Origin: Kitasatospora sp. NBC_00458
GTDB lineage: Bacteria > Actinomycetota > Actinomycetes > Streptomycetales > Streptomycetaceae
Length of the DNA stretch: 64,000 nucleotides
Direction: 5' to 3'
Assembly (NCBI RefSeq): GCF_036013975.1
Contig: NZ_CP107904.1
Span: forward strand, 2,356,001 to 2,420,000
Position 1 is the stretch's first letter; each line of letters begins with the position of its first letter. Position numbers and translations under genes: made by a program. The notes under the pieces are model-generated. The model was not told the origin of the DNA. It saw only the letters and a program-made list of their open reading frames with translations, and ran no database searches. Shown piece by piece: positions 35,451 through 46,518 of the stretch.

Positions 35451-35808
35451 AGGGCTAACGGTATCGGGCCGTGACCGGTCCGCTGATCTGCCATGGCACG
35501 GAGCGTTCGTTCGAGCGGCCGTTCGAACCTCCCGACCCGCCCCGACGCCGCCCCCGGCACCCCGCCCTCGACCTCCGGCCCTCCCCCGCGGCCGTCCCCG
35601 GCGGCCGGCCGCCGGACACCCACCGGCCGTGCGGCGGCCGCCAGTCGGCGATCCGCCGGCCCCGTGCCGACCATCCGTCGGCGATCCGCCGCGGGGGCCG
35701 GATCCGGGGAGCGGCGGGAACGCTCGAACATCCCAGCATTCGAAACCTTCAGGTCCAGAATACGGACGTTAGTGGACCGCGAGTCGTGCTCCGTGCGAAT
35801 CTCTTGCC
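35451..35808. other. Intergenic region upstream of the sulfur operon
   Basis: These 358 bp separate the YihY gene from the sulfur-assimilation leader ORF. I see no gene. The last 100 bp, with CATTCGAAACCTTCAGG and AATACGGACGTTAGTGG, are less GC-rich and likely hold the operon promoter, but I cannot fix the -10 and -35 elements. Confidence 0.5.
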
Positions 35809-35892
35809 ATGCCGAGCGCCGGAACCACCCTAGTAGGTCGACTTCACGTCGATCTCCTTCGCGTGTCCAGCGCCATCTGTCCGGTGACCTGA
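35809..35892 (+). CDS. Cysteine-type leader peptide (27 aa) of the sulfur operon
   Basis: ATG 35809 opens 27 codons ending in TGA. The peptide reads MPSAGTTLVGRLHVDLLRVS followed by SAICPVT. The RLHVDLLRV-X-S-A-x-C pattern is the hallmark of the small actinobacterial leader peptides found before sulfite reductase and other sulfur genes. I recall cysteine-responsive attenuation reported for related ORFs in mycobacteria. A single Cys codon lies four codons before the stop. There is no Shine-Dalgarno, so leaderless translation is likely. It lies 198 bp before the sulfite reductase start, which leaves room for alternative mRNA folds. Confidence 0.75.
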   Translation: MPSAGTTLVGRLHVDLLRVSSAICPVT

Positions 35893-36090
35893 GCCCTACC
35901 CCGCTGCCACCCACCGCACCCGGCGCCACCACTCCGCCGTCCCCGCCGACGCGGACCCGCAGGCGCCCGCCCGGTCACCGGTCACTGCTTCGCAGGCCTT
36001 GAGAACCCGCAGGTCACAGCAGCACCGAACCGCCGAGCACGCCCAGCGACCCACCCGGCGTCAGAGCCACCTGCCCCGAAGGACTTCACC

Positions 36091-37815
36091 ATGGCCACCA
36101 CTCCCGAGACCGCCGAGCCCACGGCCGCCGCCGCCCCCGCGCGCCGCCCCGCCGCGCCTCGCAAGGTGACCCGCCACCGCGGTGAGGGCCAGTGGGGCAT
36201 GGGCCACTTCACCCCCCTGAACGCCAACGAGCAGTTCAAGAAGGACGACGACGGTCTCAACGTACGGACACGTATTGAGACGATCTACGCGCACCGGGGC
36301 TTCGACTCGATCGACCCGGCCGACCTCCGCGGCCGGATGCGCTGGTGGGGCCTCTACACCCAGCGCAAGGAGGGGATCGACGGCGGCAAGACCGCGATCC
36401 TCGACCCGCACGAGCTCGACGCCGAGTACTTCATGCTCCGCGTCCGCATCGACGGCGGCCGGCTGACCGTCGCCCAGCTCCGCGCCGTCGCCGAGGTCTC
36501 CCAGGAGTACGGCCGCAACACCGCCGACCTGACCGACCGGCAGAACGTCCAGTACCACTGGATCCGGATCGAGGACGTCCCCTCCATCTGGCAGAAGCTG
36601 GAGGCCGTCGGCCTCTCCACCACCGAGGCCTGCGGCGACACCCCGCGCGTCATCCTCGGCTCCCCGGTGGCCGGCATCGCCGAGGACGAGATCATCGACG
36701 GCACCCCCGCCATCGACGAGATCCAGCGCCGGTTCATCGGCAACAAGGACTTCTCCAACCTGCCACGCAAGTTCAAGTCCGCCGTCTCCGGCTCCCCGCT
36801 GCTGGACGTCGCACACGAGATCAACGACATCGCCTTCGTCGGCGTGGTCCACCCCGAGCACGGCCCCGGCTTCGACCTCTGGGTCGGCGGCGGGCTCTCC
36901 ACCAACCCCAAGCTCGGCGTCCGGCTCGGCGCCTGGGTCCCGCTGGACGAGGTCGCCGACGTCTACGGCGGCGTCATCGGCATCTTCCGCGACTACGGCT
37001 ACCGCCGGCTGCGCAACCGCGCCCGGCTGAAGTTCCTGGTCGCCGACTGGGGCGTGGAGAAGTTCCGCCGGGTGCTGGAGGAGGAGTACCTCAAGTACGA
37101 GCTCGTCGACGGTCCCGCACCGGCGGAGCCCAGCGGCCGCTGGCGCGACCACGTCGGCGTGCACCGGCAGAAGGACGGCCGCTACTACGTCGGCTTCGCG
37201 CCGCGCGTCGGCCGCGTCGACGGCAAGCTGCTCGGCCGGATCGCCGACCTCGCCGAGGCCCACGGCAGCGACCGGCTGCGCACCACCGCCGAGCAGAAGA
37301 TGATCGTCCTCGACATCGCCGAGGACCGGGTCGAGTCGCTGGTGGCCGGCCTGGAGGCGCTGGACCTGCGGGTCACCCCCTCCCCGTTCCGCCGCGGCAC
37401 CATGGCCTGCACCGGCATCGAGTACTGCAAGCTCGCCATCGTCGAGACCAAGGAGCGCGGCCGCACGCTCATCGACGAGCTGGAGAAGCGCCTCCCCGAC
37501 TTCGAGGAGCCGCTCACCATCAACATCAACGGCTGCCCGAACGCCTGCGCCCGCATCCAGGTCGCCGACATCGGCCTCAAGGGCCAGCTGGTGACGGACG
37601 AGCAGGGCAACCAGGTCGAGGGCTACCAGGTGCACCTGGGCGGCGCGCTCGGGCTGGAGGCCGGGTTCGGCCGCAAGGTCCGCGGCCTCAAGGTCACCAA
37701 GGAGGGCCTGCCCGACTACGTCGAGCGCGTCCTGACCCGCTACCAGGCCGACCGCGCCGAGGGCGAGCGGTTCGCGCAGTGGGCGGCCCGCGCCGGCGAG
37801 GAGCAGCTCTCGTGA
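36091..37815 (+). CDS. sirA: Ferredoxin-dependent assimilatory sulfite reductase
   Basis: This 574-residue enzyme reduces sulfite to sulfide in six electrons. It has the two duplicated nitrite/sulfite reductase ferredoxin-like halves and the siroheme/4Fe-4S binding cysteines in CTGIEYCKLAIVE and NGCPNACARIQVADIG. The presence of a cysteine-synthesis operon around it makes sulfite, not nitrite, the likely substrate. GAAGGA precedes ATG 36091. The next gene overlaps it by GTGA. A sirohydrochlorin chelatase at the far end of the operon can supply siroheme. Confidence 0.95.
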   Translation: MATTPETAEPTAAAAPARRPAAPRKVTRHRGEGQWGMGHFTPLNANEQFKKDDDGLNVRTRIETIYAHRGFDSIDPADLRGRMRWWGLYTQRKEGIDGGKTAILDPHELDAEYFMLRVRIDGGRLTVAQLRAVAEVSQEYGRNTADLTDRQNVQYHWIRIEDVPSIWQKLEAVGLSTTEACGDTPRVILGSPVAGIAEDEIIDGTPAIDEIQRRFIGNKDFSNLPRKFKSAVSGSPLLDVAHEINDIAFVGVVHPEHGPGFDLWVGGGLSTNPKLGVRLGAWVPLDEVADVYGGVIGIFRDYGYRRLRNRARLKFLVADWGVEKFRRVLEEEYLKYELVDGPAPAEPSGRWRDHVGVHRQKDGRYYVGFAPRVGRVDGKLLGRIADLAEAHGSDRLRTTAEQKMIVLDIAEDRVESLVAGLEALDLRVTPSPFRRGTMACTGIEYCKLAIVETKERGRTLIDELEKRLPDFEEPLTININGCPNACARIQVADIGLKGQLVTDEQGNQVEGYQVHLGGALGLEAGFGRKVRGLKVTKEGLPDYVERVLTRYQADRAEGERFAQWAARAGEEQLS

Positions 37816-38024
37816 GCGAGCGTGCGGCACCCTTCTTCTGCCCCTACTGCGGCGACGAGGACCTGCGGCCCTCCGAGGCCGGGCACGGCGCCTGGGAGTG
37901 CCACGGCTGCCGCCGGGCCTTCCAGCTGAAGTTCCTCGGCCTGCTCTCCCCGGCCAACGGGGGCCAGGCCGACGCGACCCGGACCGGCGGGGGGAGCGCA
38001 CCGCATGACCACCACGACCGCTGA
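37812..38024 (+). CDS. Small zinc-ribbon protein between sirA and cysH
   Basis: This 70-residue ORF starts at a GTG overlapping the sirA stop. It has a zinc ribbon built from FFCPYCGDEDL and WECHGCRRAFQLKFLGL, then a His-ending tail, and overlaps the cysH start by 20 bases. It fits the small Zn-ribbon proteins typically inserted between sirA and cysH in streptomycetes. The role is unproved; its tight coupling suggests a part in the sulfite or APS reductase system, for example as an electron or metal carrier. Confidence 0.82.
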   Translation: MSERAAPFFCPYCGDEDLRPSEAGHGAWECHGCRRAFQLKFLGLLSPANGGQADATRTGGGSAPHDHHDR

Positions 38025-38709
38025 CGACCACGGGGCACTGGCCGAGAAGGCCGGCCGGGAGCTGGAGGAGGCCACCCCGCAGGAGATCCTGCGCTGGGCG
38101 GCCGACACCTTCGGCAAGCGGTTCTGCGTCACCTCCTCGATGGAGGACGCCGTCGTCGCCCACCTCGCCTCGTCGGTCCTCCCCGGCGTGGACGTGGTCT
38201 TCCTGGACACCGGCTACCACTTCCCGGAGACCATCGGCACCCGGGACGCGGTGGCGGCGGTGATGCCGGTCAACGTCATCACGCTCACCCCGAAGCTGAC
38301 CGTGGCCGAGCAGGACGCCGAGTACGGGCCGCGCCTGCACGACCGCGACCCGGACCTGTGCTGCTCGCTGCGGAAGGTCGAGCCGCTCAACCGCGGCCTG
38401 GGCGGCTACGACGCCTGGGCCACCGGGCTGCGCCGCGACGAGTCGCCGAGCAGGGCCGGCACCCCGGTGGTCTCCTGGGACGCCAGACGCCGCAAGGTCA
38501 AGATCGCCCCGATCGCCCGCTGGACCCAGGACGACGTGGACGCCTACGTGAACGCCAACGGCGTGCTGCTCAACCCGCTGCTGTGGGAGGGCTACACCTC
38601 GATCGGCTGTTCGCCGCTCTCCTGCACCCGCAAGCCGGGCGAAGGCGAGGACGCCCGCTCCGGCCGCTGGTCCGGGACCGGCAAGACCGAGTGCGGCATC
38701 CACCTCTGA
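38005..38709 (+). CDS. cysH: Phosphoadenylyl/adenylyl-sulfate reductase CysH, variant Cys motif
   Basis: CysH reduces APS or PAPS to sulfite. Signature parts are VFLDTGYHFPET, the Cys119-Cys120 pair (DLCCSLRKVEPL), and the catalytic C-terminus KTECGIHL with Cys230. The 4Fe-4S type is confirmed by the Cys-Cys pair. The second pair, however, reads IGCSPLSCTRKP, that is Cys202-X4-Cys207, instead of the family's Cys-X2-Cys (GCxPCT). Two extra residues therefore sit inside the cluster site. It may be tolerated or may weaken the cluster. The gene overlaps the zinc-ribbon ORF by 20 bases. Confidence 0.93.
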   Translation: MTTTTADDHGALAEKAGRELEEATPQEILRWAADTFGKRFCVTSSMEDAVVAHLASSVLPGVDVVFLDTGYHFPETIGTRDAVAAVMPVNVITLTPKLTVAEQDAEYGPRLHDRDPDLCCSLRKVEPLNRGLGGYDAWATGLRRDESPSRAGTPVVSWDARRRKVKIAPIARWTQDDVDAYVNANGVLLNPLLWEGYTSIGCSPLSCTRKPGEGEDARSGRWSGTGKTECGIHL

Positions 38710-38799
38710 GCCGTCTAGGGGCTTCCCTGGGGGCTTCCGCAGGGCCGCCCCGCAGCACATGATCGATCGTCACACCCCATCCCGTCTGGAGAAGTCACC

Positions 38800-39399
38800 G
38801 TGAGCACAGTCCACACCCCGGCCGCCGACGGAGCCGCAGAGGCGGCCCGTGCGGCCGCCATCTGCGAGCGCGGCGCCACGGTGTGGCTGACCGGGCTGCC
38901 GAGCGCCGGCAAGACCACGCTCGCCTTCGCCCTGGCCGAGCGGCTGCGCGCCGAGGGCCACCGGGTCGAGGTCCTGGACGGCGACGAGATCCGCGAGTTC
39001 CTCTCCAAGGGCCTCGGCTTCACCCGCGAGGACCGGCACACCAACGTCACCCGGATCGGCTTCGTCGCCGAGAAGCTCGCCGCCAACGGCGTCAAGGTGC
39101 TCGCCCCGGTGATCGCCCCCTTCGCCGACTCCCGCGCCGCGGTCCGCGAGCGGCACGCCGCGAACGGCACCGCGTTCCTGGAGATCCACGTCGCCACCCC
39201 GGTCGAGCTCTGCGCCGAGCGCGACGTCAAGGGGCTGTACGCCAAGCAGGCCGCCGGGGAGATCTCGGGCCTGACAGGGGTAGACGACCCGTACGAGGCA
39301 CCGGAACATCCGGAGCTGCGGCTGCAGACCCAGGGCCGCGCGGTGGCCGAGTCCGCCGCCGAGCTTCACGCCTTCCTGACCGAGAGGGGCCTCGCATGA
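38800..39399 (+). CDS. cysC: Adenylyl-sulfate kinase
   Basis: The 199-residue kinase phosphorylates APS to PAPS. It has the P-loop GLPSAGKTT, the VLDGDEIREFLSKGLGFTREDR recognition segment and the C-terminal DDPYEAPEHPELRL. GGAGAA precedes GTG 38800. The 90 bp gap after cysH is the only substantial gap in this part of the operon. The last four bases overlap cysD (ATGA). Confidence 0.93.
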   Translation: MSTVHTPAADGAAEAARAAAICERGATVWLTGLPSAGKTTLAFALAERLRAEGHRVEVLDGDEIREFLSKGLGFTREDRHTNVTRIGFVAEKLAANGVKVLAPVIAPFADSRAAVRERHAANGTAFLEIHVATPVELCAERDVKGLYAKQAAGEISGLTGVDDPYEAPEHPELRLQTQGRAVAESAAELHAFLTERGLA

Positions 39400-40334
39400 C
39401 CACCGCGACCGACAGCCCGCTCCGCACCGACGACTCCCCCTTCGCGCTGTCCCACCTGGACGCGCTGGAGGCCGAGTCGGTGCACATCTTCCGCGAGGTC
39501 GCGGGGGAGTTCGAGCGCCCGGTGATCCTCTTCTCGGGCGGCAAGGACTCCATCGTCATGCTGCACCTGGCGCTCAAGGCCTTCTGGCCGGCCGCCGTGC
39601 CGTTCTCGCTGCTGCACGTCGACACCGGGCACAACTTCCCCGAGGTCATCGCCTACCGCGACCGCGTGGTGGCCGAGCACAACCTGCGCCTGCACGTCGC
39701 CCACGTCCAGGACTTCATCGACGACGGCCGGCTGCGCGAGCGCCCCGACGGCACCCGCAACCCGCTGCAGACCGTCCCGCTGCTGGACGCCATCGAGACG
39801 GGCCGCTTCGACGCCGTCTTCGGCGGCGGCCGCCGCGACGAGGAGAAGGCCCGCGCCAAGGAGCGGGTCTTCTCGCTGCGCGACGAGTTCGGCGCCTGGG
39901 ACCCGCGCCGCCAGCGCCCCGAGCTGTGGTCGCTCTACAACGGCCGGCACGCGGTCGGCGAGCACGTCCGCGTCTTCCCGCTCTCCAACTGGACCGAGCT
40001 GGACGTCTGGCAGTACATCGAGCGCGAGGGCATCGAGCTCCCGGAGATCTACTACGCCCACGAGCGCGACGTCTTCGCCCGCAACGGCATGTGGCTGACC
40101 GCCGGCGAGTGGGGCGGCCCCAAGGAGAACGAGCCGGTCCAGCGGCGGCTGATCCGCTACCGCACGGTCGGCGACATGTCCTGCACGGGCGCCGTCGACT
40201 CCGAGGCCACCGACATCCAGGCCGTCATCGCCGAGATCGCCGCCAGCCGCCTCACCGAGCGGGGCGCCACCCGCGCCGACGACAAGCTCTCCGAGGCCGC
40301 GATGGAAGACCGCAAGCGCGAGGGATACTTCTAA
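39396..40334 (+). CDS. cysD: Sulfate adenylyltransferase subunit CysD
   Basis: The 312-residue small subunit makes APS from sulfate and ATP. The PP-loop SGGKDSIVMLHLA and HVDTGHNFPEVIAYRD are clear, and the protein ends with the SEAAMEDRKREGYF tail. It overlaps cysC by ATGA and cysN by one base (TAATG), which couples synthesis of the heteromer. Confidence 0.95.
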   Translation: MTTATDSPLRTDDSPFALSHLDALEAESVHIFREVAGEFERPVILFSGGKDSIVMLHLALKAFWPAAVPFSLLHVDTGHNFPEVIAYRDRVVAEHNLRLHVAHVQDFIDDGRLRERPDGTRNPLQTVPLLDAIETGRFDAVFGGGRRDEEKARAKERVFSLRDEFGAWDPRRQRPELWSLYNGRHAVGEHVRVFPLSNWTELDVWQYIEREGIELPEIYYAHERDVFARNGMWLTAGEWGGPKENEPVQRRLIRYRTVGDMSCTGAVDSEATDIQAVIAEIAASRLTERGATRADDKLSEAAMEDRKREGYF

Positions 40335-41692
40335 TGAGCACCACCCAGACCGGCACGACCCAGACCGGCACCGCCACCTCCCTGCTGCGCTTCGCCACCG
40401 CCGGCTCCGTCGACGACGGCAAGTCCACCCTCGTCGGCCGGCTGCTGCACGACTCGAAGTCCGTGCTCGCCGACCAGCTGGAGGCCGTCGAGCACGCCTC
40501 CCGCAACCGCGGCCAGGAGGCGCCCGACCTCGCGCTGCTCACCGACGGCCTGCGCGCCGAGCGCGAGCAGGGCATCACCATCGACGTCGCCTACCGCTAC
40601 TTCGCCACCCCCCGGCGGCGGTTCATCCTCGCCGACACCCCGGGCCACGTGCAGTACACCCGGAACATGGTGACCGGCGCCTCCACCGCGGAGCTCGCCG
40701 TCGTCCTGGTCGACGCCCGCAACGGCGTCGTCGAGCAGACCCGCCGGCACGCCGCCGTCGCCGCGCTGCTGCGCGTGCCGCACGTCGTGCTGGCCGTCAA
40801 CAAGATGGACCTGGTCGACTACGCCGAGCCCGTCTTCGCGCGGATCGCCGAGGAGTTCACCGCCTACGCCGCCTCGCTCGGCGTCAAGGACGTGGTGGCC
40901 GTCCCGATCTCCGCCCTCGCCGGGGACAACGTCGTCGAACCCTCCGCCCACATGGACTGGTACGGCGGCCCGACCCTGCTGGAGCACCTGGAGACCGTCC
41001 CGGTCGGCAGCGACCCGAGCGTCGAGCCGGCCCGGTTCCCCGTCCAGTACGTGATCCGCCCGCAGACCGACGAGCACCCCGACTACCGCGGCTACGCCGG
41101 GCAGCTGGCCTCCGGCGTGCTGCGGGTCGGCGACCCGGTGACCGTGCTGCCCTCCGGCCACACCACCACCGTCGCCGGCATCGACGCGCTCGGCCGGGAG
41201 ACCGACATCGCCTGGGCCCCCCAGTCGGTGACCGTCCGCCTCGCCGACGACATCGACGTCTCGCGCGGCGACCTGATCTCGGCCGGCCCGGCCCCCGTCC
41301 CCACCAAGGACATCGAGGCCACCGTCAGCCACCTCAGCGAACGCCCCCTGCGCGCCGGCGACAAGGTGCTGCTCAAGCACACCACCCGCACCGTCCGCGC
41401 GCTGGTGAAGGAGGTCTCCTACCGGATCGACATCACCGCGCCGATCCGCGACGGGAAGCTCGGCCAGGGCTCCGGCGCCGAGGGGCTGAACGTCAACGAC
41501 ATCGGCCACGTGGTGCTCCGCACCGCCGAGCCGCTGGCCCTCGACGGCTACTCCGACAACCGCCGGACCGGATCGTTCCTGCTGATCGACCCGGCCGACG
41601 GCACCACCCTCACCGCCGGCATGGCGGGCGAGGCGTTCGACACCGTACGCAGCACCGACGCACCCGCATCCCAAGAGGAGGACTGGGTCTGA
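40334..41692 (+). CDS. cysN: Sulfate adenylyltransferase GTPase subunit CysN
   Basis: The 452-residue elongation-factor-like GTPase drives APS formation by CysD. G-motifs are GSVDDGKSTLVGRL, DTPGHVQYTRNMV and NKMDLVD. It is shorter than CysN-CysC fusions, in agreement with the separate cysC gene. Its TGA overlaps the ATG of a 36-codon ORF as TGATG. Confidence 0.95.
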   Translation: MSTTQTGTTQTGTATSLLRFATAGSVDDGKSTLVGRLLHDSKSVLADQLEAVEHASRNRGQEAPDLALLTDGLRAEREQGITIDVAYRYFATPRRRFILADTPGHVQYTRNMVTGASTAELAVVLVDARNGVVEQTRRHAAVAALLRVPHVVLAVNKMDLVDYAEPVFARIAEEFTAYAASLGVKDVVAVPISALAGDNVVEPSAHMDWYGGPTLLEHLETVPVGSDPSVEPARFPVQYVIRPQTDEHPDYRGYAGQLASGVLRVGDPVTVLPSGHTTTVAGIDALGRETDIAWAPQSVTVRLADDIDVSRGDLISAGPAPVPTKDIEATVSHLSERPLRAGDKVLLKHTTRTVRALVKEVSYRIDITAPIRDGKLGQGSGAEGLNVNDIGHVVLRTAEPLALDGYSDNRRTGSFLLIDPADGTTLTAGMAGEAFDTVRSTDAPASQEEDWV

Positions 41693-41802
41693 TGCCCAGC
41701 GAGGCGTTCTCGGGCATGGACAAGGAAGGCGGCCGCATCGGCAGCGGCGTCCTCGGCAGCGGCCAGGGCGGCCTGACGCGATGTGCGGGCCGACAGGGCT
41801 GA
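41692..41802 (+). CDS. Short ORF (36 aa) coupled to cysN
   Basis: An ATG overlapping the cysN stop opens 36 codons (MPSEAFSGMDKEGGRIGSGV, then a Gly-rich end with one Cys near residue 31). Coupling by TGATG suggests it is translated. The product has no known domain, and its stop lies inside the hairpin at 41792-41815. It could be a decayed start of a gene, a spacer or a leader for the transporter genes. Confidence 0.5.
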   Translation: MPSEAFSGMDKEGGRIGSGVLGSGQGGLTRCAGRQG

Positions 41803-41815
41803 CCCCAGCCCTGTC
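41792..41815. terminator. Hairpin between cysN and ssuA (terminator or attenuator)
   Basis: Perfect 10-bp arms GACAGGGCTG and CAGCCCTGTC with a 4-base loop. The stop codon of the 36-codon ORF lies in the first arm and loop, so a ribosome there would block the hairpin. This could reduce transcription of the transporter genes, or attenuate it. Confidence 0.7.
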
Positions 41816-41963
41816 ACCGGGCCGGCCGCTGTCCCGCCCCACAGCCGCGACAGCCGTGCCGACCCGGCTTGCCCGGCATCACCGATGCCGCACAAGCGCA
41901 ACCCGACCGATGTCCGCCCCGAGGCCGTCCCCTGACGGTCCGTCCGCGCGAAGGACTTCCACC

Positions 41964-43142
41964 ATGGCACCGAACCAGACTCTCCCGCACGGCCCGAATC
42001 CGCATACCCCGGCACGCCCCGCCGCCGGCCGGATCAGACGCTCCGCCGCGGCCGCCATAGCCGGCCTGACCGCCGTGGCACTGCTCTCCGCCTGCGGCTA
42101 CGGTTCGAAGAGCGACGACGACAAGCCCAAGAACCCGGCCCCGGCCGCGGGTTCCGCCTCCGGCAGCGCCGCGAAGCTGTCCGCCGACACGGTGAAGATC
42201 GGCTACTTCGCCAACCTCACCCACGGCACCCCGCTGGTCGGCCTCCAGGAGGGCATCCTCCAGAAGGAGCTGGGCGCCACCCAGATCAAGACCCAGGTCT
42301 TCAACGCGGGCCCGGCCGAGATCGAGGCGCTGAACGCCGGCTCCATCGACATCGGCTGGATCGGCCCCTCCCCGGCGATCAACGGCTACACCAAGTCCGA
42401 GGGCAAGTCGCTGAAGATCATCGGCGGTTCGGCCTCCGGCGGCGTCAAGCTGGTGGTCAACCCCGACAAGATCGCCACCCTGGACGACCTCAAGGGCAAG
42501 AAGATCGCCACCCCGCAGCTGGGCAACACCCAGGACGTGGCGCTCCTCAACTACCTGGCCGGCAAGGGCTACAAGGTCGACGCGCAGTCCGGCGCCGGCG
42601 ACGTCAGCGTGGTCCGCTCGGACAACAAGGTCACCCCGGACGCCTACAAGCAGGGCTCGATCGACGGCGCCTGGGTGCCCGAGCCGACCGCGTCCAAGCT
42701 GGTCACCCTCGGCGCGAAGGTCCTGCTCAACGAGAAGGACATCTGGCCGAACAAGCAGTTCGTCATCACCAACATCATCGTCTCGCAGAAGTTCCTGGCC
42801 GAGCACGCCGACGTGGTCGAGGCCGTCCTGCGCGGCTCCGTGACCACCAACGCCTTCATCAAGGCGAACCCGGACAAGGCCAAGGCCATCGCCAACGAGG
42901 CCATCAAGAAGGAAGCCGGCAACGCCCTGGAGCCGGCCATCCTCGACCCGGCCTGGGCCGACATCGAGTTCCTGGACGACCCGCTGGCCTCCACCCTGCA
43001 GACCGAGGCCGACAACGCGGTGACCGCCGGCCTGCTCAAGAAGCCCAACCTGGCCGGGATCTACGACCTCACTCCGCTCAACAAGGTGCTCAAGGAGAAG
43101 GGGCAGAGCCCCGTGGCGGACGCCGGACTCGGCACCAAGTAA
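41964..43142 (+). CDS. ssuA: Sulfonate/sulfate-type ABC transporter substrate-binding lipoprotein
   Basis: The 392-residue protein has a lipoprotein signal (AGLTAVALLSAC, Cys44), then an SsuA/NrtA/TauA periplasmic-binding-like fold (VKIGYFANLTHGTPLVGLQEG, IEALNAGSIDIGWIGPSPAINGY, VPEPTASKL). It likely captures aliphatic sulfonates or sulfate esters outside the membrane for use as a sulfur source. Nitrate or taurine would be alternatives, but the operon favours sulfur. GAAGGA precedes ATG 41964. Confidence 0.88.
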   Translation: MAPNQTLPHGPNPHTPARPAAGRIRRSAAAAIAGLTAVALLSACGYGSKSDDDKPKNPAPAAGSASGSAAKLSADTVKIGYFANLTHGTPLVGLQEGILQKELGATQIKTQVFNAGPAEIEALNAGSIDIGWIGPSPAINGYTKSEGKSLKIIGGSASGGVKLVVNPDKIATLDDLKGKKIATPQLGNTQDVALLNYLAGKGYKVDAQSGAGDVSVVRSDNKVTPDAYKQGSIDGAWVPEPTASKLVTLGAKVLLNEKDIWPNKQFVITNIIVSQKFLAEHADVVEAVLRGSVTTNAFIKANPDKAKAIANEAIKKEAGNALEPAILDPAWADIEFLDDPLASTLQTEADNAVTAGLLKKPNLAGIYDLTPLNKVLKEKGQSPVADAGLGTK

Positions 43143-43160
43143 CACCGCCCCGCGGTACCC

Positions 43161-43189
43161 CCGTGGGCGCGCCCGCGGCGCGCCCACGG
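43161..43189. terminator. Hairpin after ssuA
   Basis: Perfect 13-bp arms (CCGTGGGCGCGCC and complement) with loop CGC begin 18 bp after the ssuA stop. It is likely a partial terminator, so that the binding protein is made in excess over ATPase and permease. Confidence 0.75.
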
Positions 43190-43295
43190 CGCCCAAGCCC
43201 CGCGGTCCGGAACCCCGCCCGCCCGGTCGATGCCCGCTCGATGCCCCGAGTACGGCCCCGGGCGGGGCCCGGACCCCGGCTCCCTCCGTCACCAT

Positions 43296-43323
43296 CCCTC
43301 CCGTCCGCCGGCGGACGGGAGGG
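43296..43323. terminator. Inverted repeat just before ssuB
   Basis: Perfect 14-bp arms (CCCTCCCGTCCGCC and its complement) adjoin each other; the effective loop is formed by the central bases. It ends 32 bp before the ssuB ATG. It may be an additional terminator or an RNA fold that protects or blocks the ssuB ribosome-binding site. Confidence 0.65.
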
Positions 43324-43355
43324 GCCCGAGACCACACCACGCAGGAGGTGTCCGG

Positions 43356-44159
43356 ATGACTCCGGCACTGACCACCTCGGACGACGCCGTCGGCGTCGGC
43401 ACCCGCGACGGCGCACCGGCCGTCCGGATCTCGCACGTGCACAAGTCCTTCGGCCGTCCCGGCGCGCAGACGCACGTCCTGGACGACATCACCCTCGACG
43501 TCGCGCCGGGCGAGTTCGTCACGCTGCTCGGCGCCTCGGGCTGCGGCAAGTCCACCCTGCTCAACCTGGTCGCCGGTCTCGACGCGCCCACCGCGGGCAC
43601 CATCGAGGTTCCCGGGGGACGCCCCGCGCTGATGTTCCAGGAACACGCGCTCTTCCCCTGGCTCACGGCCGGCCGGAACATCGAACTCGCCCTCAAGCTC
43701 GCCGGCGTCCCCCGGGCCGAGCGCCGGGCCGAGGCCGAGCGGCTGCTCGAACTCGTCCGCCTCCAGGGCTCCCACGGCAAGCGCGTGCACGAGCTCTCCG
43801 GCGGCATGCGCCAGCGCGTCGCGCTCGCCCGCGCGCTCGCCCAGGGCGGCTCCCTGCTGCTCATGGACGAGCCGTTCGCCGCCCTCGACGCCATCACCCG
43901 CGACGTCCTGCACGACGAGATCACCCGGATCTGGGCCGAGCGCAAGCTCTCGATCCTCTTCGTCACCCACAACGTGCGGGAGGCCGTCCGGCTCGCCCAG
44001 CGCGTGGTCCTGCTCTCCTCCCGCCCCGGCCGGGTCGCCCGCGAGTGGCGGATCGACCTGCCGCAGCCCCGCCGGATCGAGTCCTCCGGCGTCGCCGACC
44101 TGTCCATCGAGATCACCGAAGAACTGCGTGGGGAGATCCGCCGCCATGGCCAGCACTGA
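43356..44159 (+). CDS. ssuB: Sulfonate-type ABC transporter ATPase
   Basis: The 267-residue ATPase has Walker A GASGCGKST, the signature LSGGMRQRVALARALA and Walker B LLLMDEPFAALD. AGGAGG precedes ATG 43356. It couples ATP hydrolysis to import by the adjacent permease, with which it overlaps by 14 bases. Confidence 0.92.
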   Translation: MTPALTTSDDAVGVGTRDGAPAVRISHVHKSFGRPGAQTHVLDDITLDVAPGEFVTLLGASGCGKSTLLNLVAGLDAPTAGTIEVPGGRPALMFQEHALFPWLTAGRNIELALKLAGVPRAERRAEAERLLELVRLQGSHGKRVHELSGGMRQRVALARALAQGGSLLLMDEPFAALDAITRDVLHDEITRIWAERKLSILFVTHNVREAVRLAQRVVLLSSRPGRVAREWRIDLPQPRRIESSGVADLSIEITEELRGEIRRHGQH

Positions 44160-45048
44160 CACCACGCCGATCCTGGACAAGGCCCCGGGCGGCGACACCG
44201 CCGACGTGGGCGCCGGCCTCGACGCGCTCGACGCCGTCAGCACCCAGCGCAACTCCCTCGCGGACACCCTGCGGCAGAAGGCGCTGCCGCCCCTGCTCGG
44301 CGTGCTCCTGGTACTCGCCCTCTGGCAGGGCGCCTACAGCCTCGAACTGACCAGCTCCTACAAGCTGCCCAGCCCCGCCGACGTCGCACGGGCCGCCCAG
44401 GACCTGTGGTCCGCCGGCACGCTGTTCTCGATCATCTGGACCAGCGTCTGGCGCGGCCTCTCCGGCTTCGTCGTCGCCGTCGCCATCGGCACCCCGATCG
44501 GCCTGGTCGTCGCCCGGGTCAAGCCCGTCCGGGCCGCCCTCGGACCGGTCCTCTCCGGCCTCCAGTCGCTGCCCTCCGTCGCCTGGGTCCCGGCCGCCGT
44601 CATCTGGCTCGGCATCAACGACTCGATGATGTACGCCGTCATCCTGCTCGGTGCCGTCCCCTCCATAGCCAACGGCCTGGTGGCCGGCATCGACCAGGTG
44701 CCGCCGCTGTTCCTGCGGGCCGGCCGCACCCTCGGTGCCACCGGCCTCAACGGCGCCCGCCACATCCTGCTCCCCGCCGCGCTGCCCGGCTACCTGGCCG
44801 GCCTCAAGCAGGGCTGGGCGTTCTCCTGGCGCTCGCTGATGGCCGCCGAGCTCGTCGCCTCCTCCCCCGACCTGGGCCTCGGCCTCGGCCGGTACCTGGA
44901 GAACCAGCGCGAGTTCTCCGACATGGCCGGCGTCCTGCTCGGCATCATCCTCATCCTGTTCGTCGGCATCGCCATCGAACTGCTCGTCTTCACCCCGGTC
45001 GAGCGCCGGGTCCTGCGCAACCGCGGCCTGCTGGCCGCCGTCAAGTAA
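44146..45048 (+). CDS. ssuC: Sulfonate-type ABC transporter permease
   Basis: The 300-residue protein has about six spans and the BPD-transport inner-membrane signature (ARTLGATGLNGARHILLPAALPGYLAGLKQGWAFSWRSLMAAELV). The ATG overlaps ssuB by 14 bases. Together with the lipoprotein and ATPase it forms one importer. Confidence 0.9.
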   Translation: MASTDTTPILDKAPGGDTADVGAGLDALDAVSTQRNSLADTLRQKALPPLLGVLLVLALWQGAYSLELTSSYKLPSPADVARAAQDLWSAGTLFSIIWTSVWRGLSGFVVAVAIGTPIGLVVARVKPVRAALGPVLSGLQSLPSVAWVPAAVIWLGINDSMMYAVILLGAVPSIANGLVAGIDQVPPLFLRAGRTLGATGLNGARHILLPAALPGYLAGLKQGWAFSWRSLMAAELVASSPDLGLGLGRYLENQREFSDMAGVLLGIILILFVGIAIELLVFTPVERRVLRNRGLLAAVK

Positions 45049-45059
45049 GGCCGCTCCGC

Positions 45060-45848
45060 ATGGACGAAGGCCGGCTGTCCGCCGCCCCCGCCACCCCGGT
45101 GGCGGCGGGCAGCCCCGCCCTGCTGCTGATCGCCCACGGCAGCCGCGACGCCCGGCACGCCGCCACCGTCGCCGACCTGGTCGCCCGGGTCCGCGCGCTG
45201 CGCCCCGGCCTCGACGTCGCCACCGCGTACCTCGACCACTGCGCGCCGCGGATCCCGCAGGTGGTCTCCCGGCTGGGCTCCGCCGCGGTGGCCGTGCCGC
45301 TGCTCCTCAACCGGGCCTTCCACGCCAAGAACGACATCCCCGCCGCCCTGCGCGCGGCCGGCGCCACGCTGCCGACGGCCGATGTCCTCGGCCCGTCCCC
45401 GCTGCTGCTGGCCGCCCTCGACCGCCGCCTCGCGGAGGCCGGTCCCGAGCTCGCCTCCGCGGCCGTCCGGGCCCGCACGGGTGTCGTCCTGGCCGCCGCC
45501 GGCTCCTCCGACCCGGCCGCCGACGCCGCGACGCGAGCCGTCGCCGCGCAATGGCGCCGCACCCGCGGCTGGGCCGCCGTCGAGGTCGCCTACGCCTCGG
45601 CCGAGGGCCCCCGCGTCCCCGACGCCCTCGCCGCGCTGCGCCGCGCCGGCGTCCGGCGGACCGCCGTCGCCCCCTACCTGCTCGCCCCCGGCCGGCTCCC
45701 CGACCGCATCGCCGGGGCCGCCGCCGACGCCGGAGCCGACCTCCTCGCCGAGGTCCTCGGCGCCGCCCCCGAGATCGCCCGCCTCCTGCTCACCCGCTAC
45801 GACGCGGCCCTGACGGAACTCCGCACCGCCCCGGCCCTGACCGCCTGA
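45060..45848 (+). CDS. Sirohydrochlorin chelatase (CbiX/SirB-like)
   Basis: The 262-residue protein has the two-domain CbiX/SirB pattern: LLLIAHGSRDARHAATVADL with the catalytic His, AFHAKNDIPAA, and a second half beginning VVLAAAGSSDPAADAATRAV. It inserts iron or cobalt in sirohydrochlorin. Here, 11 bp after the permease and in one operon with sulfite reductase, siroheme formation is the likely job. The start is ATG 45060. A perfect 21-bp hairpin covers its stop. Confidence 0.9.
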   Translation: MDEGRLSAAPATPVAAGSPALLLIAHGSRDARHAATVADLVARVRALRPGLDVATAYLDHCAPRIPQVVSRLGSAAVAVPLLLNRAFHAKNDIPAALRAAGATLPTADVLGPSPLLLAALDRRLAEAGPELASAAVRARTGVVLAAAGSSDPAADAATRAVAAQWRRTRGWAAVEVAYASAEGPRVPDALAALRRAGVRRTAVAPYLLAPGRLPDRIAGAAADAGADLLAEVLGAAPEIARLLLTRYDAALTELRTAPALTA

Positions 45849-45888
45849 TTGCGGAGCCCCCGGCCTCGCCGGGGGCTCCGCAATCAGG
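45844..45888. terminator. Terminator of the sulfur operon
   Basis: Perfect 21-bp arms with the 3-base loop CTC cover the chelatase stop codon and the 3' end of the VapC remnant. It should end the transcript that begins near 35800. Confidence 0.93.
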
Positions 45889-46066
45889 AGTGGTCCAGGT
45901 TGCTGTGCTCGCCGAGCTCCGGAGCGTACCCGGCCACGGTCCGGTAGTCGGCGTCGTCGTGCAGAACGGTGAGCCCGTGGTGCGCCGCCGTCGCCGCGAT
46001 CACGAGGTCGACGGCCGAGGCGCTGCGATGCCGACCGCCGAGGGCCGTCCGCCGCCGCACGGTGTC
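45884..46066 (-). pseudogene. VapC/PIN-domain toxin remnant
   Basis: Minus-strand translation gives 60 residues typical of the C-terminal half of PIN-domain RNase toxins: RSASAVDLVIAATAAHHGLTVLHDDADYRTVAGYAPELGEHSN, with the late active-site Asp residues. No plausible start, N-terminal PIN part or partner antitoxin gene is present, and upstream codons diverge. It is a broken toxin gene. Confidence 0.75.
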
Positions 46067-46197
46067 GATCCAGCACCCGGCATTCTTGGCGCCTCCGTCG
46101 TATCGATGGTGGTTCTGTACATTCGACTACACGCCACCAACATCGCACCGGGGGCGGGACCTGTCGCGCCGGGCCCCCGTGAACCCGGCGCGACGGG

Positions 46198-46518
46198 TCA
46201 GTCGGCGGTCCCGAGGTGGACGGTGACCAGGCCCGCGGTGATCAGGGCGAGACCGGCGAGGGCCACCGGGGACGGCGTCTCGTGGCGCAGCACCACTCCG
46301 GTCAGAACGGCGCCGACGGTGCCGATGCCGGTGAACACGGCGTACGAGGTGCCGACCGGGAGGTCCTGGAGGGCGCGCGAGAGCAGGTAGACCGCGCCGC
46401 ACATCAGGACGAGGCAGAGCAGGGTCTGCGGGAGCCGGGTGAACCCGTCGGTGGGCTTGATGGACTGCGCCCAGGCGATCTCCACCGCTCCCGCCAGCAG
46501 CAGCCAGATCCACGGCAC
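46198..46518 (-). CDS. SMR-family multidrug efflux protein (EmrE/QacE-like)
   Basis: The 106-residue protein has four spans and the essential Glu13 in LLAGAVEIAWAQSIK. Such dimers exchange protons for cationic drugs. GGGAGGG precedes GTG 46518, 4 bp past the azoreductase stop, so both form one operon under the divergent TetR. Confidence 0.92.
   Translation of the reverse strand: MPWIWLLLAGAVEIAWAQSIKPTDGFTRLPQTLLCLVLMCGAVYLLSRALQDLPVGTSYAVFTGIGTVGAVLTGVVLRHETPSPVALAGLALITAGLVTVHLGTAD

Follow-up and report, generated by a model that had tools for sequence, protein, structure and literature searches.

Leader ORF and Downstream Genes

The window analyzed here is a stretch of 64,000 nucleotides from Kitasatospora sp. 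NBC_00458 (NZ_CP107904.1, positions 2,356,001 to 2,420,000, forward strand). It carries a short plus-strand ORF followed by ten plus-strand genes, which begin with sir, continue with a 70-aa CxxC ORF and the cysH, cysC, cysD and cysN genes, and end with an SsuA-family gene, the ATPase and permease genes of an ABC transporter, and a CbiX-family gene. The features of the locus are as follows:

35773..35802, + strand: promoter-like element TGGACC - 18 nt - GAATCT, separated by 6 nt from the leader ATG
35809..35892, + strand: leader peptide ORF MPSAGTTLVGRLHVDLLRVSSAICPVT (translation, NF042934 match, conservation)
35878..35880, + strand: TGT, the late Cys codon and codon 24 of the leader; proposed as the stall site (codon counts across leaders)
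35893..36090, + strand: C-rich spacer of 198 nt from the leader stop to the sir start; no intrinsic terminator, no unusual fold
36010..36017, + strand: CAGGTCAC, complementary to the leader end GTGACCTG (35884-35891); candidate RNA pairing, Kitasatospora group only
36078..36083, + strand: Shine-Dalgarno (SD)-like GAAGGA of sir, read from the sequence
36091..37815, + strand: sir, sulfite/nitrite reductase family (profile match; no NCBIfam equivalog cut-off reached)
37812..38024, + strand: 70-aa CxxC ORF overlapping sir and cysH (no Pfam match)
38005..38709, + strand: cysH, (phospho)adenylylsulfate reductase (profile match)
38800..39399, + strand: cysC, adenylylsulfate kinase (profile match)
39396..40334, + strand: cysD, sulfate adenylyltransferase small subunit (profile match)
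40337..41692, + strand: cysN, sulfate adenylyltransferase large subunit (profile match)
41871..43142, + strand: SsuA-family substrate-binding protein (start anywhere in 41781-41964)
43356..44159, + strand: ABC transporter ATPase (SsuB-like)
44128..45048, + strand: ABC transporter permease (SsuC-like)
45003..45848, + strand: CbiX-family protein, probable sirohydrochlorin chelatase (start uncertain)

The frame at 35809-35892 reads MPSAGTTLVGRLHVDLLRVSSAICPVT and is closed by TGA. In the profile search, it matched the NCBIfam family NF042934 (cis_reg_atten, "putative leader peptide") with 39.6 bits (E 2.6e-10, cut-off 27), all 19 model positions being aligned, which supports the assignment of the peptide to the actinobacterial leader-peptide class made in the preliminary description. 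The NF042936 model (Ms4527A Cys-rich leader) gave 20.1 bits on the same peptide, under its curated cut-off of 45, and comparison with Rfam returned one sub-threshold match, located on the opposite strand. The sole Cys codon of the leader, the 24th of 27, is TGT (35878-35880). A late Cys codon does stand, as had been proposed, in a leader ahead of a sulfur operon, and the sir, cys, ABC transporter and chelatase genes were all confirmed downstream. The transport function ascribed to this operon holds inasmuch as an ABC transporter is present; however, it belongs to the sulfonate (SsuA) family and is not a plain sulfate transporter.

Three intergenic gaps separate the downstream genes: 90 nt between cysH and cysC, about 90-270 nt between cysN and ssuA (the start of the latter being uncertain), and 213 nt between ssuA and ssuB. 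All three could hold promoters or other elements of internal control; therefore, control of the whole ten-gene set by a single Cys codon is a plausible hypothesis. In the ssuA-ssuB gap, there are two perfect inverted repeats (43161-43189 and 43296-43323, whose arms measure 13 and 14 nt), possibly acting as a partial stop or as an mRNA stabiliser, while the terminator scan called no plus-strand terminator there.

Distribution of the Leader Family

Eighty sir loci nearest to that of the window were chosen by sir protein similarity, the closest match being from Kitasatospora purpeofusca (96% identical). The leader was found upstream of sir in 79 of these 80 loci, with 88-261 nt between its stop codon and the beginning of the sir match; in L066, the one locus left over, only 110 nt of upstream sequence were at hand. 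Such a pattern indicates that the leader is not a chance ORF. The leader at 35809-35892 is a real feature and a member of a known, already annotated family; it is alike to other NF042934 members, and nothing excludes its membership. Public annotation uses the name "putative leader peptide", for example ahead of ABC transporter genes in the Streptomyces record NZ_CP108713.1.

Another sample comprised 30 loci of the class picked by sir and not by the leader. Here, the leader was found in 18 cases, while 2 of the 12 loci showing no leader had less than 160 nt of upstream sequence. NF042934 profile matches at E up to 0.001 were present in 144 of the 197 sampled genomes of the class (above the cut-off in 128), and a phylum-wide draw of 246 genomes yielded 14 genomes with a match at E up to 1e-4, all 14 from this same class. 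A class-wide set of 80 loci was taken from profile matches, mostly higher-scoring ones, and 77 of them were parsed by pattern. The three loci outside the pattern were L124, having TGT, L137, having no late Cys, and L163 (G021 contig 251), where two divergent family leaders, both with TGT, have their cores about 130 nt apart. Leader counts from these different samples share some loci and are not additive. In the retrieved stretches behind the 77 class leaders, the longest ORF encodes a rhodanese in 27 cases and a protein of the sulfite/nitrite reductase type in 13; luciferase-like monooxygenases account for 5 cases, and PLP enzymes and the PAPS reductase type for 4 each. Keeping in mind how many genomes of the class carry the family and how many sulfur genes it precedes, we might suppose that actinomycetes use it as a main switch of their sulfur assimilation.

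The leader had also been described as standing alone. This is true of the window, in which the profile at E up to 10 matched one place, but not of the genome as a whole, where further copies exist. At the same threshold, we obtained 21 matches genome-wide, of which ten were left out as partial matches or as lying inside long frames; 11 candidate copies, the one in the window included, were read, and 5 of them score above the cut-off. They precede mostly sulfur genes: following the ten other copies are cysM with a MoaD-like protein, a rhodanese, a cysteine dioxygenase-like gene, ssuE, an arylsulfatase-like gene, a 2OG-Fe(II) oxygenase, an SfnB-like oxidoreductase, a TIGR04028-like binding protein and an SsuD-like gene, with a LuxR-type regulator gene behind the weakest match. 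The copy ahead of the cysteine dioxygenase-like gene (L031, 7222091-7222147) has two TGT codons near its stop. Induction by cysteine shortage would be unexpected for such a gene, unless its product scavenges organic sulfur.

The Late Cysteine Codon

The late Cys is encoded by TGT in 80/80 sir-linked leaders (the window included), in 77/77 class-wide leaders, in 11/11 copies from the window's own genome, in 20/20 weaker profile matches from the window's own family, and in 18/18 leaders of the sample picked by sir. The searches were carried out at the protein level and, therefore, could not select the Cys codon. Two sir leaders in which an extra residue places the Cys one position further on keep TGT as well, and further leaders with a Cys at the late site contributed 13 TGT and one TGC. 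The TGC exception (L209) is a poly-Cys leader scoring 25.9 bits, below the NF042934 cut-off.

Other Cys codons follow quite a different usage. Around the 77 class peptides, they amount to 98 TGC vs. 29 TGT, a count that may include codons before the true starts; with the count begun five codons ahead of the VDL core, they are 86 TGC vs. 26 TGT. Cys codons at position -7 of the 77 peptides are TGC in 33 cases and TGT in 3, the ORFs downstream of the class leaders contain 237 TGC and 52 TGT, and eight genes of the window operon contain 16 TGC and a single TGT.

Two nucleotide-level candidates were tried and rejected. One was RNA pairing as the reason for the third-base U: the longest helix running through this base was 7.77, as compared with 7.29 when C was placed there and 7.92 in shuffled sequences. 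The other was a pyrimidine found directly after TGT in 74 of the 77 class leaders; Arg at this site is encoded by CGN in 40/40 cases, and since CGN dominates at other Arg sites too, we did not take this pyrimidine as a signal.

UGU is wobble-read by tRNA-Cys, whose anticodon is GCA, and would therefore be the more sensitive codon choice. We favour reading the near-fixation of TGT as a decoding effect. A rarer synonymous codon also serves as the regulatory one in the enterobacterial leu leader, with its rare CUA codons; unlike the window leader, the leu leader has a run of Leu codons and a terminator hairpin. What appears to be new here is the near-fixed TGT, otherwise the rarer codon, at the late Cys, together with the reuse of the peptide core described below. 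The literature searched, in which subscription papers were mostly not represented, contained no mention that we could find of a fixed UGU or of a conserved core. A synonymous codon nearly fixed across a class, while ordinary usage prevails elsewhere in the same peptides, turns codon and peptide sensitivity into a testable question, namely, what joint role codon choice and the nascent peptide play in the sensitivity of an amino-acid sensor.

Probable Leaderless Start and the Peptide Core

The promoter-like element of the window would start a transcript at or beside the ATG of the leader ORF, making it leaderless. Its GAATCT box is an imperfect match to the TANNNT of the family, and a consensus scan called no sigma-70-type site at the window leader. 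Across the 77 class leaders, a TANNNT box lies 6-8 nt before a start codon in 46 cases vs. 5.4 +/- 2.1 (maximum 11) in 200 shuffles, while SD-like motifs before the leaders are not enriched (12 vs. 18.8 +/- 3.7 in shuffles). Overall, as far as these motifs go, the leader family looks leaderless.

All 77 class leaders have R at -13, D at -9 and R at -6, giving the core R-x2-[VI]DL-x-R, although this figure is inflated because the profile that chose the sequences favours those very residues. Synonymous codons vary freely at these positions, with CGN and AGR for Arg and both codons for Asp, which points to selection on the peptide. Taken together, UGU and the invariant R/D/R suggest that the ribosome stalls at UGU with the help of the nascent peptide.

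In genomes of the window's family, five leaders have the core without the late Cys. Four of them are followed by a GST-like gene (no NCBIfam match), the fifth being L205. The GST-like gene was found at 29 places in 28 of 101 genomes, and 20 further upstream regions were taken. Eighteen of these 20 regions contain the core, and the late site is occupied by TGT in 3, by a stop codon in 3 and by another codon in 12. Sixteen of the 18 GST-linked leaders have a Cys at -4, encoded by TGC in 16/16 and by TGT in none. As a side observation, in L216-L235, L201, L202, L203 (+), L205 and L137 the core is RRHIDLxRVCSA or near it, mostly with no late Cys; many leaders that lack the late Cys lie ahead of GST-like genes and have a stop or a different codon at the late site.

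Proposed Mechanism and Its Alternatives

In our opinion, the locus is probably governed by a leaderless, cysteine-sensing leader peptide, stalling at whose UGU codon raises expression of the sulfur operon. The ribosome would start at the 5' end of the transcript and build a nascent chain with the core R-x2-[VI]DL-x-R, and would then have to decode the one UGU Cys codon just ahead of the stop. If charged tRNA-Cys runs short, the ribosome would stall at UGU (35878-35880) and expression of the sulfur operon would go up; when cysteine is plentiful, the ribosome would finish the leader and expression would go down. Both the stalling and the direction of the response are inferred from mycobacterial relatives.

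The primary paper on leaderless poly-cysteine short ORFs of mycobacteria is reportedly that of Canestrari et al. (2020). According to two other reports, such ORFs are cysteine-responsive and regulate by translational attenuation (PMC13236596, PMC9031893), and a Cys-rich uORF ahead of cysA2 is described in a third (PMC4633059). The window leader shares with the mycobacterial ORFs a family with a leaderless signature, the VDLxR core, a Cys near the stop and a position upstream of sulfur genes; it differs from them in having one Cys codon instead of a run and in falling below the NF042936 cut-off. Relatives from the same profile search do end in Cys runs, like the mycobacterial poly-Cys ORFs. Another comparable system is the uORFC-8-2 motif ahead of cysS in Rhodobacterales, where Cys codons in a short uORF were proposed to sense Cys-tRNA (PMC8632094). 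The motif described there has tandem Cys codons, mostly UGC, and an intrinsic terminator, whereas the window leader has one UGU and no terminator. For the NF042934 family itself, the part of the literature covered by our search yielded no experimental mechanism.

Several points stand against the leaderless-sensor reading: 12 of the 30 sir loci show no leader, one target is cysteine dioxygenase-like, L209 has TGC, a sub-class lacks the late Cys, the -10 box of the window is imperfect, and the in silico tests support no output step. The leader might instead be an arrest peptide responding to a free small molecule, in the way that TnaC responds to tryptophan, and not to charged tRNA-Cys. The conserved core would suit such a peptide, as would the GST-linked sub-class, which keeps the core while the late Cys is missing in 15 of 18 leaders. 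Still, we consider this improbable, since the late Cys, where retained, is always UGU except in L209, which fits a decoding step better, and since genes for biosynthesis have to be induced when cysteine is low, not when it is high. Returning to the cysteine sensor, it is tempting to extend it to a peptide-assisted, codon-specific one, in which the core would slow the ribosome and the wobble-read UGU would become limiting as charged tRNA-Cys falls, the core itself being a modular stall element with exchangeable triggers. The core would then be reused before GST-like genes, mostly with the late Cys lost and with a UGC Cys four codons earlier. We put this extension forward tentatively, as somewhat more likely to be wrong than right.

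As to how stalling would be passed on to the operon, candidates for the output step are unmasking of the SD, Rho-dependent termination or something else, and no single output mechanism is supported by the in silico tests. A classical attenuator of the trp type, with alternative hairpins and an intrinsic terminator, is very improbable. It would agree with a regulatory codon placed shortly before the stop, but neither an intrinsic terminator nor an alternative hairpin was found at the window leader: no intrinsic terminator was detected on the plus strand of 35600-46200, and the spacer contains no inverted repeats of at least 9 nt with arms within 60 nt. A search for alternative hairpins in 35800-36090, recommended in the preliminary description, came out negative, with fold z-scores of -1.22 and 0.00 and no terminator. 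Moreover, there is a single Cys codon, and the peptide is conserved beyond it.

Within the cysteine-sensor reading, translation attenuation, with leader RNA pairing to the SD region of sir and a ribosome stalled at Cys freeing the SD, is possible, but less likely than not. It is the mechanism credited to the relatives from M. smegmatis in PMC13236596 and PMC9031893, and in the window TCCTTCG (35855-35861) is able to pair with the sir SD. This pairing is not conserved, and we rejected it as a general candidate: it gave the best helix in only 7 of the 16 loci listed, Streptomyces leaders lack those codons, and in L043 CTT is changed to CTC in the leader while the SD is unchanged. Among the Streptomyces-side loci, 48 of 66 have a local SD hairpin vs. 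18% of shuffles, a comparison uncorrected for kinship, but it is absent from all 14 loci of the Kitasatospora group. In the latter group, the leader end, stop codon included, is able to pair with CAGGTCA of the spacer, the best helix exceeding shuffles in 13 of 14 loci vs. 18 of 64 in Streptomyces, where 37 of the 64 loci nevertheless have the motif CAG[GC]TCAGAG. Since the leader end would be covered by a ribosome standing at the Cys codon, a switch based on this pairing is possible. On the other hand, the pairing lies about 80 nt from sir, off the SD. No compensatory change was seen for it, and L048 has a changed leader end without a matching change in the spacer. Predicted access to the SD was the same with the ribosome at Cys (0.319) and at the stop (0.327; p 0.73, 80 sequences), and leader-spacer helices averaged over 80 loci were no longer than in shuffles.

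Rho attenuation, whereby a ribosome that has finished the leader exposes the C-rich spacer and a stalled one hinders Rho, seems to us rather unlikely as the output step. In its favour, C minus G is positive in the spacer after 75 of 77 class leaders vs. 26 of 77 stretches upstream of leaders, as well as in 80/80 sir-linked loci and in 8 of the 10 further copies of the own genome, and an intrinsic terminator is absent; the literature also cites a study dealing with Rho and uORFs in M. tuberculosis. However, C skew before sir genes without a detected leader was 0.151 (n=10) vs. 0.118 before those with a leader (n=18; p 0.34), and we dropped the C-rich spacer as specific evidence for Rho because the sequence before sir genes with no leader detected is C-rich too. 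At control genes, the skew was mild (positive in 10 of 15, mean 0.056). It is also hard to see how a spacer of 198 nt could be protected by a ribosome that stands at codon 24.

Finally, we would like to mention two minor observations on RNA pairing. The SD hairpin of the Streptomyces-side loci is of the GUCC-CGAA-GGAC type, as in L064, and the spacer of the window contains a second exact complementarity to the leader end, between 35881-35889 and 35973-35981.
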